Shown one piece after another: positions 26,560-33,714 of a DNA stretch of 64,000 bases (position 1 is the stretch's first letter; each line of letters starts with the position of its first letter). The position numbers and the translations under genes were made by a program. Source of the DNA: Streptosporangiaceae bacterium NEAU-GS5 (GTDB lineage: Bacteria > Actinomycetota > Actinomycetes > Streptosporangiales > Streptosporangiaceae); contig JAGFNW010000001.1 in the NCBI GenBank assembly GCA_017592665.1, forward strand, positions 682,001 to 746,000. The letters are read 5' to 3'. The notes beneath the pieces are model-generated. The model did not search any database and was not told the DNA's origin. It saw nothing but the letters and a program-made list of their open reading frames with translations.

Positions 26560-26838
26560 CTAAAGCCAGGCCCGTAGTTCCCAGAGGAGGGGGTAAAAGT
26601 GCAGCCGGGTCCGCCCTGTCAAATACGGTGCCCCTGACGAGCCGCCCGTATCCGATTTCACGCCGATCTGGCGCTCCACCGCCCGCGGATCGAGCCGCGA
26701 CAGGACCGTGATGGGGTAAGCATCGCACAGGTGGAAGGGGCGGAAACGGCGATGGGCGCGCCACGGCGCGCCCAGCTGTAGGTAGCCGCCAACGGCCAGA
26801 GGACCGCCGTCCTCACCGAAACCGCGGCTCGATGACAC
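26560..26838 (-). CDS. Possible small protein upstream of the glutamate dehydrogenase
   Basis: 92 codons from a GTG with GGGGAG 5 nt upstream, ending 43 nt before the gdhB start on the same strand. Third codon positions are mostly G/C in the middle section, as in real genes here. The sequence (RRFRPFHLCDAYPITVLSRLDPRAVERQIGV) is soluble, without TM helix or known motif. It is not a family I recognise. The remaining bases of the 26517-26992 gap hold a terminator and nothing else evident. Confidence 0.42.
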   Translation of the reverse strand: MSSSRGFGEDGGPLAVGGYLQLGAPWRAHRRFRPFHLCDAYPITVLSRLDPRAVERQIGVKSDTGGSSGAPYLTGRTRLHFYPLLWELRAWL

Positions 26839-26930
26839 TTCGTCTCCCCGATGGCGCGAGCGCCCCGATCACCATTGATCGGGTCCACGCCACCGGACCG
26901 ATACCACCCGAAAAAGAGCGGACAGTCAAA

Positions 26931-26955
26931 CCGGGCCCCCACCTTGGGGGCCCGG
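26931..26955 (-). terminator. Terminator of the sigma/anti-sigma operon
   Basis: Perfect 10-bp stem CCGGGCCCCC/GGGGGCCCGG with loop ACCTT. On the minus strand it is followed by TTTGACTG, a short T run. It lies 38 bp after the stop of the zinc-finger gene. Confidence 0.75.
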
Positions 26956-26992
26956 TCGTTTGGTCTGTGTCACGGGGGTTACGGGATGGTGC

Positions 26993-27175
26993 TTACGGGA
27001 TGGTCCGCTCCGAGGTCGCCTCGTCGAGCAGTGCAGGCACCTGGCAGAAGAGGGCAAGCTCTTCGCGGCAGGCGGGGCACACGTCAAGGTGCCGCTCGAA
27101 CGCCTCGGTGTCTCCGTCGTCGAGCACTCCCAGGGCGTACGCCGCCACATCGAAGTGTTCCGACGACCTGGACAT
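26993..27175 (-). CDS. Short zinc-finger anti-sigma-like protein
   Basis: 60 aa. It matches the N-terminal zinc-binding anti-sigma domain: FDVAAYALGVLDDGDTEAFERHLDVCPACREELALF, with the H-x3-C-x2-C core. The TM helix and extracytoplasmic domain of the usual ~250-aa anti-sigma factors are missing; the frame closes at TAA, inside a short direct repeat (TTACGGGATGGT). Its ATG overlaps the sigma stop (TGATG), so the two are coupled. It may be a soluble RsrA-like anti-sigma, possibly redox-sensing, or a truncated membrane anti-sigma. Confidence 0.82.
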   Translation of the reverse strand: MSRSSEHFDVAAYALGVLDDGDTEAFERHLDVCPACREELALFCQVPALLDEATSERTIP

Positions 27176-27735
27176 CAGCTGGCCACCCCCCTTTCCTTCA
27201 ACTCTACTCGCAGATTTCGCAACGCGTAGTAGAGCCTCGACTTCACCGTCCCCGGCGGTATCCCCAGTATCTCCGCCGCTTCGTTCACCGTGCGGTCCCG
27301 AAGGTATGTCTGTTCTATAACTTCACGGTGCTCATTCGAGAGGCCACGGAGCGCATCCGCCACGACGATCGCCGCGATCGCGCTCTCCGACCCATCAGGT
27401 ACAGAGATGCTGTCTTCTTCCGGTGCTTCGACCTCCCTGGGGCGCACGCCACGCCGGCGGCGCCCGTCGATCACGATGCGGCGGGCCACTGTGAGGAGCC
27501 AGGCCCACAAGAGGCCCCGCTCCCAGGTGAGCTTGGCCGCGTTACGCCACGCTCTGAGGAGCGTCTCTTGGACGACATCCTCTGCCCATTGAAGGTCATT
27601 GCCGGTCGTCTGCCGTACATGACGGAGCAGGGGACCACCGAACTCGTCATACAGCTCCCGGATCCGCAGATCTGGGTCGTCCATGGGGTCCAGACGCTCA
27701 TACCGGCTGTCGAGTTGACGACGCACGGGCCACAT
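27175..27735 (-). CDS. ECF-family RNA polymerase sigma factor
   Basis: Extracytoplasmic-function sigma factor of 186 aa. Region 2 is seen as LLRHVRQTTGNDLQWAEDVVQETLLRAWRN...LLWAWLLTVARRIVIDGRRRR. Region 4 is ALRGLSNEHREVIEQTYLRDRTVNEAAEILGIPPGTVKSRLYYALRNLRVEL. An internal ATG at 27684 (MDDPDLRIREL) gives the more usual N-terminus and may be the true start; neither start has a strong ribosome-binding site. It is coupled to the short zinc-finger gene and divergent from the DUF4142/DUF1996/cytochrome genes, its likely targets. Confidence 0.93.
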   Translation of the reverse strand: MWPVRRQLDSRYERLDPMDDPDLRIRELYDEFGGPLLRHVRQTTGNDLQWAEDVVQETLLRAWRNAAKLTWERGLLWAWLLTVARRIVIDGRRRRGVRPREVEAPEEDSISVPDGSESAIAAIVVADALRGLSNEHREVIEQTYLRDRTVNEAAEILGIPPGTVKSRLYYALRNLRVELKERGVAS

Positions 27736-27855
27736 ATTTGCACCCGGGTTTGTCCGATGTACACAACTCTCGTCACTTCAGTCATTTCTGACTATCCCTG
27801 AACCACCGTCCCACACCCCGCGTACCTCCCGGCGAAGGTCACGAAAGGAGGCACA

Positions 27856-28437
27856 ATGCGGTTCCGGTTCGGGGAACTCCTGGTGCTTGGAGTCTTCCTG
27901 TTCGCCGCGGCGATCGCGGTGATCGTGGTCGTGCCGAGGAGCGACGCCTCCGGGCCCGGCTGGACTCAGACTCCATGGGGCCCCCTGGGCCCCGCAGACC
28001 GCGACCTGATCATCAAGGTCAGGTGGGCGGGTCTGTGGGAGGTCCCGGCCGGGCAGTGGGCACAGCAGAAGGGAGCCAGCGCTCGGGTCCGAGAGGTAGG
28101 CGCGACCCTCGTCGAGGATCATACGAAACTCGACGAAGCGACCCGGGCGCTGGCCGCCAAATTAGGTATGGGCCTGCCCAACGACCCCAACCCAGACCAG
28201 CAGCGCTGGCTGGGTGAGATGCGAGACAGCACGGGGGCCGCATTCGACCAGATCTTCGCCGACCGCCTGCGCGGCGCCCACGGCAAGGTCTTCTCCACGA
28301 TCGCGGCCGTGCGCGCAGGCACACGCAACAGCCTGGTGCGCGAGTTCGCCACGGTGGCCAACACCTTCGTCATGAAGCACATGACGATCCTTGAGAGCAC
28401 CGACCTCGTGAACTACTCGATTCTCCCGACTCCCTAA
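27856..28437 (+). CDS. DUF4142 family exported protein
   Basis: 193 aa with an N-terminal TM or uncleaved signal anchor (residues 8-27) and a ferritin-like four-helix DUF4142 domain (DRDLIIKVRWAGLWEVPAGQWAQQKGASARVREVGATLVEDHTKLDEATRALA...). A perfect AGGAGG precedes the ATG. The ORF begins 120 bp from the divergent sigma-factor gene and is followed 16 nt later by the DUF1996 gene. The biochemical role of the family is unsettled. Confidence 0.9.
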   Translation: MRFRFGELLVLGVFLFAAAIAVIVVVPRSDASGPGWTQTPWGPLGPADRDLIIKVRWAGLWEVPAGQWAQQKGASARVREVGATLVEDHTKLDEATRALAAKLGMGLPNDPNPDQQRWLGEMRDSTGAAFDQIFADRLRGAHGKVFSTIAAVRAGTRNSLVREFATVANTFVMKHMTILESTDLVNYSILPTP

Positions 28438-28453
28438 GTGTAGGCGGAAGCAC

Positions 28454-29731
28454 ATGCGAAAACACGTTCTGGTCGCGGTCGCGGCCATCACCTTCGGCAC
28501 GTCCCTCGTGGCCGTGTCACCGCCTGCGAACGCCGACGGCCCAACGCCCGACCAGTTCATCGACATCCGCCAGGTGCCGCGAGGCACGAACCTCGTGGTC
28601 GCGGGACGCGGCTCGTTCATCGCTCAGTGTGGCCGCAACCAGAACGGCCACCACAACCCCGACAACTTCATCGTCGCTCCGGGTGTCAGCAACGGCGCCC
28701 ACCACGTGCACGACTACGTCGGCAACCTGTCCACGGACGGGTTCTCCACCGACCAGAGCCTGGCCGCCGCCGGCACCACCTGCCGGTTCGGCGACAAGTC
28801 CGCGTACTTCTGGCCGGTCCTCCGGAGCATCACCAACGTCAACCAGCAGCAACAGCAACAGCAACAGCAACCCCAGCAGTCCGCCCAGCCGAGCCAGTCC
28901 GCGCAGCCGACCGTGTCGGCTTCCGCTTCCGCTTCCGCCTCCGCGTCGGCCTCCGCCTCGGCGGCGGCCTCTGACGGCACGGGCGGCACGGGCGGCACCG
29001 GCACAGGTTCCGCTAAATCTTCATCCGCGTCCTCCTCGGACGCCCTGAGTCAGGACACCGGAGCCGCCCAGGACACAGGCGCGGCCGCTGACTCATCGGC
29101 CGACTCTTCGGCTTCTTCAGCCGCGGCCGCAGCCCAGCCCGCCAGCAGATCGGCCACCGCTTCCAACAGGTCGCAGGCCACCGCCTCGGATGAACCGGGC
29201 GGCGCGGCGGACGGCAACGTGGGCAGGATCCTCCTGCCTCGCTCGGTGACGCTGCAGTTCCGCAGCAACCGGGCCGCGCGGGTGGTAGCCATGCCGCGCT
29301 TCATCCGGATCATCACTGGTGACGCCAAGTCCGCCACGAACGGCGGGGCCAACGCCCGAGCGCGATGGACCTGCACTGGCTTCACCGACCGGACCACGAC
29401 CAAGTACCCGCTGTGCCCCCGAGGCAGCCAGGTCGTCCGCATCCTGGACTTCCCGAGCTGCTGGGACGGACAGAACACCGACAGCGCCAACCACCGCACC
29501 CACGTGCTGTTCCCGGATGCGCAAGGCCGGTGCCAGAGCGGCACCAAGCCCATCCCGCAGCTGCGGATGATCCTCACGTACTCCGTGAACGCCGGGGCGT
29601 CCTTCGCGGTGGACTCCTTCCCGGAGCAGGCCCACAACCCGATCACCGACCACGGCGACTTCACCAACGTGATGCCGGACCGGTTGATGACCGCGGTCGT
29701 GAACTGCCTCAACCGCGGACAGCGTTGCTAG
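28454..29731 (+). CDS. Secreted DUF1996 protein with poly-Gln and Ser/Ala low-complexity insert
   Basis: 425 aa: a signal peptide ending SPPANA, then the first part of DUF1996 (FIAQCGRNQNGHHNPDNFIVAPGVSNGAHHVHDYVGN), with the His-rich motif of the family. A ~130-residue insert follows: nine consecutive Gln, then alternating Ser-Ala and Gly-Thr runs. The domain resumes at ILLPRSVTLQFRSNRAARVVAMPRFIRIITGDAKS and ends in the usual paired-Cys DUF1996 C-terminus (FPSCWDGQNTDSANHRTH, NCLNRGQRC). DUF1996 proteins are secreted and found in fungi and actinomycetes; function is unknown. The insert is encoded by CAGCAA and GCTTCC repeats, prone to slippage. Confidence 0.88.
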   Translation: MRKHVLVAVAAITFGTSLVAVSPPANADGPTPDQFIDIRQVPRGTNLVVAGRGSFIAQCGRNQNGHHNPDNFIVAPGVSNGAHHVHDYVGNLSTDGFSTDQSLAAAGTTCRFGDKSAYFWPVLRSITNVNQQQQQQQQQPQQSAQPSQSAQPTVSASASASASASASASAAASDGTGGTGGTGTGSAKSSSASSSDALSQDTGAAQDTGAAADSSADSSASSAAAAAQPASRSATASNRSQATASDEPGGAADGNVGRILLPRSVTLQFRSNRAARVVAMPRFIRIITGDAKSATNGGANARARWTCTGFTDRTTTKYPLCPRGSQVVRILDFPSCWDGQNTDSANHRTHVLFPDAQGRCQSGTKPIPQLRMILTYSVNAGASFAVDSFPEQAHNPITDHGDFTNVMPDRLMTAVVNCLNRGQRC

Positions 29732-29801
29732 GCGTTCTTCTCCGAGCCCGCACTCTCAGTTAAGCATTCGTCACAGGTTCTCCCCTACTGCGGAGGAATC
29801 A

Positions 29802-30659
29802 GTGCCCAATCGACGGGCTCCCCGGCATCAAACGAGGCCAGACCTCGGCCTCGATCACCTGCATCGCCGGAGCGTTCGGATCGGACTCAGTGTCACGGCC
29901 ATCGTGCTCGTTCTCGGGACCTTGGTGCTGAGCCGATCCGGCTACGGAGTGATGTATCTCGACCAGGCGCAGGCGTTCCTGACGTTCTACGCCGGCGTGT
30001 TCTCCCTGGTCGCGCTTTCGATCACGGTAATGCTGGGCCTTCTGGCCACCGAGCGCATCGTGCTGGGCATCCGGCAGCGGGTCTACGCCCAGCTGGTGCA
30101 CCGCGCGTTCGCGCTCGTCGGCGTGGGCTTCCTCATCGTCCACATCGCAATGAAGATCGCCGCCGGCCTCGTGCCGTCGTACGGTTCGGTCGTCCCCTCG
30201 ACCAACCTCTACGTCGGCATGGGCGCGGTGGCGTCCGACCTGTTCATCATGGTCATCGCCACCGGCGTCATGCGCGGCAGGTTCGCCCAGGCCGAACGTC
30301 CCTGGTTGTGGCGTGGCATCCACGACATGGCCTACGCCGCCTGGCCGCTGTCGATCCTGCATGGACTGGCCGCCGGCCGTACCCCGGCCGCATGGGTGAG
30401 CTGGTCTTACGTTCTCTGCCTGCTCGCTGTCGGAGCGGCTCTGATGCTCAGGGTGGTCGTCTCCGCCCGCCCGGTACGCGTGTCCCAGCCGGCCGCCAAG
30501 CCGACCGGCAAGGCCGCACCTCTGGACGCCGACAACTGGCTGAAGGACATCAAGAGGGGCCTCAACACCGTGAAACCCCGCTCGGCCGACATGGATACCG
30601 AGCCGGTGCCTGAGGTGCCGTCACAGACCGAACGTCCGAAACTCAGGAGGGTCGTATGA
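29802..30659 (+). CDS. Ferric-reductase-like/cytochrome b-type membrane protein
   Basis: 285 aa from a GTG with GGAGG at 6 nt. Six hydrophobic segments (residues ~25-215) with His residues in opposed helices (QLVHRAFALVGVGFLIVHIAMK, WRGIHDMAYAAWPLSILHGLAAG) suggest a di-heme ferric-reductase-like transmembrane domain. The C-terminal ~65 residues are a polar cytoplasmic tail. It overlaps the NuoF-ferredoxin gene by ATGA. The pair looks like a membrane electron-transfer unit: NAD(P)H to flavin/FeS to heme b to an acceptor across the membrane. The heme ligands are inferred from position only. Confidence 0.8.
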   Translation: MPNRRAPRHQTRPDLGLDHLHRRSVRIGLSVTAIVLVLGTLVLSRSGYGVMYLDQAQAFLTFYAGVFSLVALSITVMLGLLATERIVLGIRQRVYAQLVHRAFALVGVGFLIVHIAMKIAAGLVPSYGSVVPSTNLYVGMGAVASDLFIMVIATGVMRGRFAQAERPWLWRGIHDMAYAAWPLSILHGLAAGRTPAAWVSWSYVLCLLAVGAALMLRVVVSARPVRVSQPAAKPTGKAAPLDADNWLKDIKRGLNTVKPRSADMDTEPVPEVPSQTERPKLRRVV

Positions 30660-32125
30660 TCCCCTACCGCGTCTCCCAGGTCCGACAGATCGGCCCGGCC
30701 CGTCTCACAGCCGGGCTGGACCGCTATCGCCGGCTCGACCTCAACGCCCACTACTCCGTCCACGAGCAGGTCCCCAACGCCACCGTGGACGAGATCATCG
30801 GCATGGCCGAGGAAGTGGACATGCGCGGCCGTGGCGGCGCCGGGTTCCCCTTCGCCCGGAAGATCCGCGCGGTCGCCGACAACGCCCGCAAGAGCGACAC
30901 GGTCGTGCTGGTCAACGCCGCCGAAGGCGAGCCGGCCAGCATGAAGGACAAGACGCTGCTCACCCGCGCGCCCCACCTCGTCCTCGAGGGCGCGCTGATG
31001 GCGGCGAGCGCGCTCGGCTCGCGCGAGGTCGTCATCGCCGTCCCCGCCGGCGAGCTCGCCGAGGGTTCGGTCAACGCCGCCGTCGCCGAGCGTGGCCTCC
31101 AGGGCTACGTACGGGTCGCCGGCATCGAGGAGCGCTTCGTGTCCGGCGAGGGCGGCGCCCTCATCCGCGCCGTCAACGGCGAGCCGTCCGGCCTGCCGCC
31201 CGGCCGCAAGCAGCGCAGCAGCGATGTGGGCGTCGACGGGCTGCCCACCCTGCTGTCGAACACCGAGACCTACGCCCAGCTGGCCATCCTCGCCGAGATC
31301 GGCCCCCAGGCGTACGCGTCCGCGGGCACCCTCCAGGAGCCCGGCACGACGCTGCTCAGCGTCAGCGGCGCCGTCAAGGCCACCTCGGTGATCGAGATCG
31401 CGCCGGGCATCCCGTTCGCGGCCGTCCTCGACATGTGCGAGGCGGACGTGGGCGACGGCGTCCTGGTCGGCGGCTACCACGGCAAGTGGATCACCCGTCA
31501 GGCCGCGTACTCCGCGACCTGCTCACGGCAGGGCCTGAAGGAGGTCGGCGGCGAGCTCGGCGCCGGCATCATCGTGCCGCTCAGCCCCGACACCTGCCCG
31601 CTCGGCGAAGTCCTCCGGGTGGCCCGGTACCTGGCCGCCCAGTCGTCCGGACAGTGCGGGCCGTGCCGGCTCGGCCTGCCCGACCTGGCGAGCGCGCTCG
31701 CCGACGTCATCGAAGGCGACCCCGACGCCATCGAGCTGGTCGAGCGCGTGGCCGGAGCCGTGAAGGGCCGCGGCGCCTGCTTCCACCCCGACGGCACGTC
31801 GCGCTTCGTGCTGTCGGCTCTCGAGGCGTTCAACGGCGACGTGCAGGAGCACCTGCTGCACGGCACCTGCGGCCGCAAGGTGAAGGAGCTGCTCCCATTG
31901 CCCATCAAGAACGAGGTGGACGTCCGCCTCGTGGTCGACTGGACCCGCTGCCAGGGCCACGGCCTGTGCGCGCACCTCGTCCCCGACCTGGTCAAGCTCG
32001 ACACCCACGGCTACCCCGTCTTCATGGACGGCGGCATCCCCTCCTGGCAGCGCAGCGCCGCGCAGAAGGCCGTGGAGATGTGCCCGGCGCTCGCCCTGCG
32101 CATCGGCGGAGGTGGCGACGCCTGA
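30656..32125 (+). CDS. NuoF-like NADH-binding flavoprotein fused to a ferredoxin domain
   Basis: 489 aa. Residues ~40-400 match the 51-kDa NADH-dehydrogenase subunit: an FMN/NADH-binding glycine-rich segment (MRGRGGAGFPFARKI), VNAAEGEPASMKDK and a C-terminal FeS region SGQCGPCRLGLPDL...RGACFHPDGTSRF. The last ~75 residues are a single-cluster ferredoxin of the P450-partner type: DWTRCQGHGLCAHLVPDLVKLDTHGYP...AVEMCPALALRI, with three Cys and His in place of one cysteine. This arrangement is not complex I; it resembles a stand-alone NADH:acceptor module that passes electrons to the overlapping cytochrome gene product. A weak terminator follows. Confidence 0.86.
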   Translation: MIPYRVSQVRQIGPARLTAGLDRYRRLDLNAHYSVHEQVPNATVDEIIGMAEEVDMRGRGGAGFPFARKIRAVADNARKSDTVVLVNAAEGEPASMKDKTLLTRAPHLVLEGALMAASALGSREVVIAVPAGELAEGSVNAAVAERGLQGYVRVAGIEERFVSGEGGALIRAVNGEPSGLPPGRKQRSSDVGVDGLPTLLSNTETYAQLAILAEIGPQAYASAGTLQEPGTTLLSVSGAVKATSVIEIAPGIPFAAVLDMCEADVGDGVLVGGYHGKWITRQAAYSATCSRQGLKEVGGELGAGIIVPLSPDTCPLGEVLRVARYLAAQSSGQCGPCRLGLPDLASALADVIEGDPDAIELVERVAGAVKGRGACFHPDGTSRFVLSALEAFNGDVQEHLLHGTCGRKVKELLPLPIKNEVDVRLVVDWTRCQGHGLCAHLVPDLVKLDTHGYPVFMDGGIPSWQRSAAQKAVEMCPALALRIGGGGDA

Positions 32126-32135
32126 CCTGACTTCG

Positions 32136-32161
32136 CCGTGATCCCTGAATCCCGATCACGG
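32136..32161 (+). terminator. Weak hairpin after the NuoF-ferredoxin gene
   Basis: Inverted repeat CCGTGAT/ATCACGG (7 bp, 12-nt loop) starting 11 bp after the stop codon. No T-run. Confidence 0.4.
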
Positions 32162-32235
32162 TGATGAGACTGTAACCAACCCGGCCCGATATCCGCGCGT
32201 CTCAAGTGGCAGCAGCTACCGAGGGGTGATCGCGG

Positions 32236-33714
32236 ATGTTGGACAGACGGGAATTTCTGCGTGTTTCGGCGTTGACGGGTGTCGCCGTCTCGACAGGGGC
32301 GGCGGCCGCCATGCCATTCGCCGCGACAGTCGCCGGGGCCGCGGCCCCGGATTGGCGCGCGCTCGCGCGCGGGCTGGACGGGACGCTGATCCGGCCGGGT
32401 GACGCGGCCTACGACCGCGCCCGGCTTGTGTTCAACTCCGCGTTCGACAAGATCCGGCCGGCCGCCGTGGCGTACCCGAAGAACGCCACCGACGTGGCCG
32501 AGTGCCTGGCGTTCGCGCGGCGCTTCAACGTGCCGGTGACCGCGCGCTCGGGCGGGCACAGCTACGCGGGTTGGTCCACCGGCACGGGGCTCGTCGTGGA
32601 CGTGTCCCGCATGTCCGGTGTCACCTACAAGAGCGGGCGGGCCACCGTGGGCGCCGGCGCGCGGCTCGTCGACGTCTACGCCAAGCTGGCCGCGCACGGG
32701 GTGAGCATCCCGGCCGGGTCGTGCCCGACCGTGGGCGTGGCCGGTCTGACGCTCGGCGGCGGCATCGGCGTGGTCTCCCGCAAGTACGGCCTGACCTGCG
32801 ACACCTTAGCCTCGCTCCAGGTCGTGACGGCCGACGGGAAGCTGCTGACCTGCTCCCCCACGCAGCACGCCGACCTCTACTGGGCCTCGCGCGGCGGCGG
32901 TGGCGGCAACTTCGGCGTGGCCACCTCCTTCACGTTCCGCACGCATCCGACCCAGAACGTGACGGTCTTCTTCCTGCACTGGCCGTGGGCGCGGGCGGCC
33001 AAGGTCATCAGCGCCTGGCAGTCGTGGGCGCCCAAGGCGCCCGACGCGCTCTGGTCCAATCTGCACCTCAACCACGACCCGTCCCCGGACGTGATGGTCG
33101 GCGGGCTCTATTTGGGCTCTCAGGCGGGCTGTGAGCGGCTCCTGCAGGCCCTTGCGGACAAGGTCGGCGCGAGTCCGTCAAGTCGGTTCGTCAGCCACAC
33201 CACCTATCAGCACGCCATGATGATCATGGCGGGGTGTTCCACGATCAGCGTCGACCAGTGCCACCGCGGCGGCGACCTGCCCGGCCAGACCGCGAGCGGC
33301 CGGCTCGTGCGCGACGGCTTCAACGCCAAGTCGCACATGGCGTACGGCCCGCTGTCGGCCGCGGGGATCAACGCGCTGATCGCGCAGACGGCCATCCCCG
33401 GCAGTCACTCGATCCTGCTGGACGCCCTCGGCGGCGCCGTCTCCCGGGTCCGGTCCGACGCGACCGCCTTCCCGCACCGGCAAGCGATCTTCAGCGTGCA
33501 GTACTACGCGCACCGGGCCGGCGCCCTGCAGTGGGTCAGGGCCGCCCACAACGCCATGCGCCCCCACTTCGGCGACCACGCGTACGTGAACTACATCGAC
33601 CCGGAGCTCACCGACTGGCGCGCCCAGTACTACGGCCCCAACGCCGCCCGCCTTGCCAAGGTCAAGGCAGCCTACGATCCGAAGCGCCTGTTCCGCCTGC
33701 CGCAAAGTATTTGA
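32236..33714 (+). CDS. Tat-exported BBE-like FAD-linked oxidase
   Basis: 492 aa with a Tat-type signal (LDRREFLRVSALTGVAVSTGAAAA). The PCMH FAD-binding domain has the His of RSGGHSYAGW and the Cys of PAGSCPTVGVAGLTLGGGIG, the two positions that carry bicovalent FAD in berberine-bridge-type oxidases. The BBE C-terminal segment (YVNYIDPELTDWRAQYYGPNAARLAKVKAAYDPKRLF) is complete. Likely an extracellular oxidase of sugars or aromatic alcohols; substrate unknown. GAGGGGTGATCGCGG precedes the ATG. The last 53 bp overlap the 3' end of the convergent acetoacetate-CoA ligase gene. Confidence 0.93.
   Translation: MLDRREFLRVSALTGVAVSTGAAAAMPFAATVAGAAAPDWRALARGLDGTLIRPGDAAYDRARLVFNSAFDKIRPAAVAYPKNATDVAECLAFARRFNVPVTARSGGHSYAGWSTGTGLVVDVSRMSGVTYKSGRATVGAGARLVDVYAKLAAHGVSIPAGSCPTVGVAGLTLGGGIGVVSRKYGLTCDTLASLQVVTADGKLLTCSPTQHADLYWASRGGGGGNFGVATSFTFRTHPTQNVTVFFLHWPWARAAKVISAWQSWAPKAPDALWSNLHLNHDPSPDVMVGGLYLGSQAGCERLLQALADKVGASPSSRFVSHTTYQHAMMIMAGCSTISVDQCHRGGDLPGQTASGRLVRDGFNAKSHMAYGPLSAAGINALIAQTAIPGSHSILLDALGGAVSRVRSDATAFPHRQAIFSVQYYAHRAGALQWVRAAHNAMRPHFGDHAYVNYIDPELTDWRAQYYGPNAARLAKVKAAYDPKRLFRLPQSI

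Follow-up and report, generated by a model that had tools for sequence, protein, structure and literature searches.

A sigma-linked locus of Streptosporangiaceae that may encode an extracytoplasmic redox module for exported proteins

A 64,000-nucleotide stretch of the 9.96-Mb genome of Streptosporangiaceae bacterium NEAU-GS5 (C1:682001-746000 of this genome, G000; henceforth the window) carries, at positions 26931-32161, a locus in which the genes of an extracytoplasmic function (ECF) sigma factor and a 60-amino-acid anti-sigma factor face an operon encoding, in this order, a DUF4142 protein, a secreted DUF1996 protein, a ferric-reductase-like membrane protein (FRD) and a NuoF-like flavoprotein fused to a ferredoxin. 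Judging from sequence comparisons, we lean slightly towards reading the locus as an ECF-sigma-controlled extracytoplasmic redox module, in which FRD and the NuoF-like protein would form an electron wire that keeps the co-induced exported proteins reduced. The electron-transfer half of this module is of a known kind; the sigma-linked exported proteins are its new part.

The two units lie divergently between two hairpins (Table 1), and these agree with the boundaries drawn by a first-pass annotation made from the DNA letters and their translated reading frames. All six genes of that annotation are present and correctly named. Matches to Sigma70_r2, Sigma70_r4 and zf-HC2 bore out the sigma/mini-anti-sigma pair facing the operon, and the NuoF-ferredoxin gene indeed overlaps the membrane protein gene, via an ATGA at the FRD stop. 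The same four letters join the genes of the left unit, on the minus strand, where the ATG of the anti-sigma gene overlaps the stop of the sigma gene.

The genes travel together. The sigma factor, anti-sigma factor, DUF4142, DUF1996, FRD and NuoF were all present in each of the 10 nearest GTDB relatives, picked by FRD similarity, and when the same set was sought in other actinomycetes it was found co-conserved in other genera of the Streptosporangiaceae, in at least four gene orders. Among the rearranged versions, PF03640 is inserted 5' of DUF4142 (L038, L039, L042), DUF4142-DUF1996 is relocated downstream of NuoF (L045), or DUF1996-DUF4142-PF03640 is divergent from FRD-NuoF (L047, L050). Because the set is conserved through these rearrangements, a chance neighbourhood can be ruled out. 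Over 60 relatives, the presence of DUF1996 and that of FRD overlapped in 13/19 (p 6e-5, uncorrected for relatedness).

The evidence for regulation by the sigma factor comes from the promoter. In an alignment of the divergent intergenic region from 12 loci, TGAACC and CCGCGTA were invariant, and almost every locus with the sigma gene has a TGAACC-N16/17-CGTA(C/T)C element 5' of DUF4142 or PF03640. In the rearranged loci the promoter still stands in front of DUF4142 or PF03640. A promoter that is conserved, kept upon rearrangement and recurrent throughout the genome makes it very likely that the operon headed by DUF4142 is sigma-controlled, as had been proposed in the first-pass annotation. That the sigma factor switches on exported or anchored proteins via TGAACC-N16/17-CGTA(C/T)C promoters is thus a strongly supported prediction; from its constant adjacency we infer that this particular sigma factor, and not a paralogue, probably reads the sites. 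The intergenic region also holds a strongly conserved block with an imperfect inverted repeat (Table 1), which reads AACTCCAGTCATTTCTGACTAT in relatives and could serve as an operator or as the promoter from which the sigma gene itself is transcribed.

The extent of the candidate regulon was sought by pattern search only. TGAACC-N15-18-CGTACC occurred seven times in the window's genome against once in the control, and TGAACY-N16/17-CGTAYC gave 9, 9 and 10 sites in G000, G012 and G031 with 1, 0 and 2 in the respective controls. A simple gene finder placed 25 of all 28 sites in intergenic DNA, most of them with a same-strand gene downstream; in G000, eight of the nine were intergenic and five lay 5' of genes of the DUF4142/PF03640, Rieske and LP-X families. 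The recurrent targets were the locus itself, a Rieske lipoprotein encoded after uvrA, LP-X (secreted lipoproteins of a family that has no name and matches nothing in Pfam), second copies of DUF1996, DUF305-type genes (in two genomes) and tandem DUF4142 lipoproteins. At the Rieske lipoprotein, a promoter scoring at least 11/12 was present in 12 of 30 loci; shuffles led us to expect 0.01, and the reverse strand had none. At LP-X, a score of at least 10/12 was reached in 15 of 17 loci; since L210/L215 and L212/L216 gave identical stretches, the independent count is nearer 13/15. LP-X was found in 11 genomes, all of them bearing FRD (hypergeometric p 2e-7, uncorrected for relatedness). The recurrence of the promoter before Rieske, LP-X and second DUF1996, DUF4142 and DUF305 copies supports the view that the sigma factor controls exported proteins of redox or metal type as a regulon. 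Such a regulon, built around an electron wire, appears undescribed in the papers searched, among which none linked DUF4142 or DUF1996 to an ECF sigma factor. Two further kinds of gene assigned by eye, aminotransferase-like (L106, L233) and secreted beta-propeller-like (L111, L227), are preceded by this promoter in two genera each and are possible additional members.

Among solved structures, the sigma factor is closest to Mycobacterium tuberculosis SigL (6dv9, 1.1e-30; regions 2 and 4 only), and its PRK09645 score is 189.5 bits, below the cut-off of 202. Both sigma factors are paired with a zinc-motif anti-sigma factor; RslA, the partner of SigL, is a membrane protein, unlike the soluble 60-amino-acid protein encoded here. 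The -35 element of SigL is TGAACC, like that of the locus promoter, a point on which our literature search returned only an unrelated paper. SigL residues H54 and D60 set the -12/-11 specificity, and the SigL -10 element is TGN(C/A)AG (PMC6372665). At the corresponding positions the window's sigma factor has N65 and W71, the -10 element of the locus promoter reads CGTA as opposed to CGTG for SigL (PMC6372665), and the predicted target set is not the same.

The zinc motif of the anti-sigma factor, HxxxCxxC (H29, C33, C36), was kept in 18/18 relatives. No membrane helix or outer domain was found in the window's protein, and its near relatives are likewise free of membrane helices. Since the anti-sigma factor is soluble and carries a zinc motif, it suggests that the sigma factor answers a cytosolic signal, perhaps thiol or metal stress. 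Longer anti-sigma versions of 222-338 amino acids with one membrane helix (by eye) were present in L045 and L046. These resemble the SigK-RskA pair and the ECF18-ECF19 groups (PMC7509140), in which an ECF sigma factor also governs exported proteins, whereas the window has a mini anti-sigma factor. The pairing of the same regulator with either soluble or longer anti-sigma factors offers a natural comparison for studying how sensing shifts between cytosol and envelope.

The presumed wire has the anatomy of a transmembrane electron carrier. Four histidines of FRD were conserved among homologues (H100, H114 and H174 in 44/44, H187 in 43/44), with X13 and X12 spacing; H100/H114 and H174/H187 probably ligate two b hemes. 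The window's FRD itself had no Pfam match at E<=1; relatives match Ferric_reduct PF01794 (L073 at 1.5e-9; L038 at 1.1e-3, below the cut-off). In the NuoF-like protein, the FMN motif residues N87, E90, E92 and K69 were kept in 40-41 of 41 proteins, and the fused CxxHxxC...C ferredoxin (~31931-32104) was present in 30/41. These features fit electron transfer across the membrane, as the first-pass annotation had it; the NADH that it named as the source of the electrons is the doubtful part, discussed below.

As to the exported proteins, the AlphaFold2 model of DUF4142 (predicted local distance difference test score, pLDDT, 90) consists of an N-terminal membrane helix and a ferritin-like four-helix bundle. 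Its nearest folds in Foldseek are ferritin-like as well (DUF305, CopM, Dps, YciF and Rv2844), all of them weak matches with a best E of 5e-3. The earlier description of an exported ferritin-like protein is hence apt as regards the fold, and the predicted protein is membrane-anchored rather than freely secreted. Residues E62, H89, D93, H142 and H175 were invariant even against paralogues, which makes a metal site plausible. DUF1996 has conserved cysteines and near-invariant histidines (H84, H86, H347, H350, H400), and its domain is interrupted by a low-complexity insert of ~120 amino acids rich in Q/SA (~28841-29215). At 28847-28971 within the gene, CAGCAA and GC-rich short tandem repeats encode a Q/SA-rich linker, which varies among relatives. 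In the literature searched there was almost no functional work on DUF4142 or DUF1996 in bacteria.

Taken together, these features suggest the following course of events. The sigma factor and its soluble zinc anti-sigma factor would respond to their signal by inducing the exported and anchored proteins, together with the electron wire encoded in the same operon. NAD(P)H, or some other donor in the cytosol, would yield electrons to the FMN and iron-sulfur clusters of the NuoF-like protein, and the conserved motifs suggest that from there they would travel via the fused ferredoxin to the four-histidine membrane protein, whose pair of b hemes would lead them to the outer side. There, DUF4142, the Rieske lipoprotein, DUF1996 and the PF03640 and LP-X lipoproteins would be kept reduced. 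The acceptor could be DUF4142, the Rieske protein or DUF1996, the link of DUF1996 and DUF4142 to the wire being one of guilt by association. More tentatively, this may be a sigma regulon not described before, whose exported DUF4142, DUF1996, PF03640, Rieske and LP-X proteins draw electrons from a two-heme wire linked to NAD(P)H, i.e., a surface redox or metal shuttle that works without flavinylated carriers. The overall interpretation of the first-pass annotation is therefore partly upheld, namely as regards co-conservation and the very likely control of the DUF4142 operon by the sigma factor. Four functionally uncharacterised families (DUF4142, bacterial DUF1996, PF03640 and LP-X) become testable jointly through the promoter that they share and their likely redox context.

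The closest precedent for the wire is a class of MsrQ-like PF01794 gene clusters, mostly of Actinobacteria, that come with ApbE and FMN-binding proteins, a NuoF-like protein being encoded in 31 of the clusters (Meheust 2021, eLife, PMC8238504); this was the only paper dealing with such clusters that we found in the literature mentioning NuoF and MsrQ together. There, a six-helix, two-heme protein of the PF01794 type is encoded with a NuoF-like flavoprotein (PF10589), much as a putative protein of this type is encoded with one here (PF01512 and PF10589), and the homologous FRD-NuoF pairs in ApbE clusters were read as serving extracytosolic, outward electron transfer (PMC8238504). However, those clusters were found via ApbE/FMN_bind, whereas the present one has a sigma/anti-sigma pair, DUF4142, DUF1996 and a fused CxxHxxC ferredoxin. 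Neither ApbE nor FMN_bind was found at the locus (PF04205 matches elsewhere in the genome fall on contigs C75 and C109), ruling out a complete flavinylated MsrQ-like system. By analogy, the FRD-NuoF wire would work like this class without being a flavinylated member of it, and it is suggested that a module so far described with flavinylated proteins can serve other exported partners. In several distant loci, ApbE lies directly 5' of FRD, and at most of these no FMN_bind (PF04205) was found. In three such ApbE-FRD loci (L191, L194, L196), a small exported-looking protein rich in serine and acidic residues is encoded 5' of ApbE, and no FMN_bind domain was found in the genomes. The locus also recalls MsrPQ, a cell-envelope methionine sulfoxide reductase in which a heme membrane protein, the membrane subunit of family PF01794, feeds an exported protein; here, the operon is without an MsrP gene, the cytosolic donor would be the NuoF-ferredoxin protein, and the acceptor would differ.

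Several observations weigh against a wire that carries NADH electrons to these particular exported proteins. The NuoF-like protein shares the Complex1_51K and NADH_4Fe-4S domains and the FMN motifs with NuoF of complex I and with HydB, yet its TIGR01959 score is 172 against a cut-off of 559, and the operon is without NuoE and NuoG. The position that is acidic in NuoF/HydB (GEE) is G, E, S or A in 24, 10, 5 and 2 of the 41 proteins, and because it is glycine in 24/41, NADH is doubtful as the donor. In all 41, alanine (30) or serine (11) takes the place of the first cysteine in the N3 motif of complex I; since C314, C334, C337, C375 and C405 are nonetheless invariant in the window's protein and its 40 homologues, these proteins likely carry a distinct iron-sulfur site. 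On the exported side, DUF1996 had no structural match (mean pLDDT of the AlphaFold2 model 72.9, no Foldseek match below 0.001, no VIA Z of at least 2). The main argument against a single integrated system is that in L045, L047 and L050 the transcription unit behind the detected promoter does not include FRD-NuoF. In Streptomyces-like genomes, FRD-NuoF occurs without the other locus genes nearby.

A somewhat unlikely alternative, though the foremost of those considered, is metal handling, in which FRD-NuoF would be an assimilatory or detoxifying iron or copper reductase, DUF4142 and DUF305 would bind metal outside, and Rieske and DUF1996 would be accessory. The resemblance of the DUF4142 model to DUF305, the copper protein CopM, Dps and YciF speaks for it at the level of the fold, as do the conserved E/H/D/H/H residues and the DUF305-type genes that share the promoter; elsewhere, an iron transporter is among the genes of MsrQ-like clusters (PMC8238504). 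However, the partly annotated table of aligned neighbourhoods showed no recognisable metal transporter next to the set, nor did a metal regulator site come to light.

It is also unlikely, a little more so, that FRD-NuoF is an independent housekeeping redox pair captured by a regulon of secreted proteins, such that the wire does not serve DUF4142 or DUF1996. FRD was matched in 58/246 genomes across the phylum, FRD-NuoF alone being far commoner than the full set, and besides the Streptomyces-like genomes it stands alone in the family members L044, L048 and L049. In the rearranged loci, the unit with the detected promoter at its head is that of the secreted proteins alone, and no sigma promoter was found within 300 bp 5' of FRD itself. 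Its position outside the promoter unit and its solitary occurrence in Streptomyces-like genomes imply that the wire may serve other partners. Nevertheless, FRD-NuoF and the secreted-protein genes remain neighbours through several rearrangements, and the presence of both DUF1996 and LP-X tracks that of FRD (see p values above), favoring a wire that belongs with the exported proteins.

An inward flow, from exported oxidative enzymes (a BBE-type FAD oxidase, DUF1996) by way of hemes and ferredoxin to an acceptor in the cytosol such as NAD+, seems very improbable: the fused ferredoxin could equally accept electrons, and a BBE oxidase adjoins the locus in five relatives, but it is outside the operon, without a sigma promoter and missing from most loci, and the homologous systems were read as outward (PMC8238504). 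Least probable of all is polysaccharide oxidation or remodelling by DUF1996 as a metal-dependent carbohydrate-active protein fed by FRD-NuoF, for which its near-invariant histidines and a second DUF1996 clade beside glycosyl-hydrolase-fused sigma factors could be cited, since DUF1996 lacks a structural match and the loci of that clade have neither FRD-NuoF nor the promoter. The second clade (L164, L168, L170, L173) lies beside an ECF sigma factor that carries a fused glycosyl hydrolase core (PF11790, 8.9e-50, checked in L164) and beside DUF305.

Table 1. Positions of the features of the locus and its surroundings in the window
Feature	Position	Strand	Remarks
12-bp perfect hairpin, terminator-like	26930..26956	.	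past anti-sigma 3' end
Mini anti-sigma factor, 60 amino acids	26993..27175	-	zf-HC2 2.5e-9, HxxxCxxC
ECF sigma factor, SigL family, 186 amino acids	27175..27735	-	Sigma70_r2 2.5e-14, Sigma70_r4 4.6e-13
Conserved non-coding block, imperfect inverted repeat AGTCA-GAAA-TGACT	27774..27795	.	between divergent genes
Putative sigma-dependent promoter TGAACC-N16-CGTACC	27799..27826	+	30 nt 5' of DUF4142 start
DUF4142 protein	27856..28437	+	profile 1.7e-21
DUF1996 secreted protein, 425 amino acids	28454..29731	+	profile 2.3e-23
Ferric-reductase/MsrQ-like membrane protein (FRD)	29802..30659	+	four conserved His; relatives match PF01794
NuoF-like flavoprotein with fused ferredoxin	30656..32125	+	Complex1_51K 4.3e-30, NADH_4Fe-4S 7.4e-16, Fer4_15 9e-15
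11-bp hairpin, 91% complementary, operon end	32133..32164	+	
BBE-type FAD oxidase, exported-looking (RR motif)	32236..33714	+	separate unit

The BBE-type oxidase gene is conserved directly downstream of the locus in the five relatives mentioned; the closest NCBIfam models of its product are BagK/FevA1, well below cut-off. It was ruled out as a member of the operon, given the hairpin in between and the lack of a detectable sigma promoter. On the other side of the locus, at 26563-26847 (minus strand), we recognised by eye a remnant of a tryptophan 2,3-dioxygenase-like gene whose middle is gone, leaving the C-terminal 39-41 amino acids (80-85% identical) and a short N-terminal piece. A full-length tryptophan 2,3-dioxygenase-like copy adjoins the anti-sigma gene in 10 relative loci.

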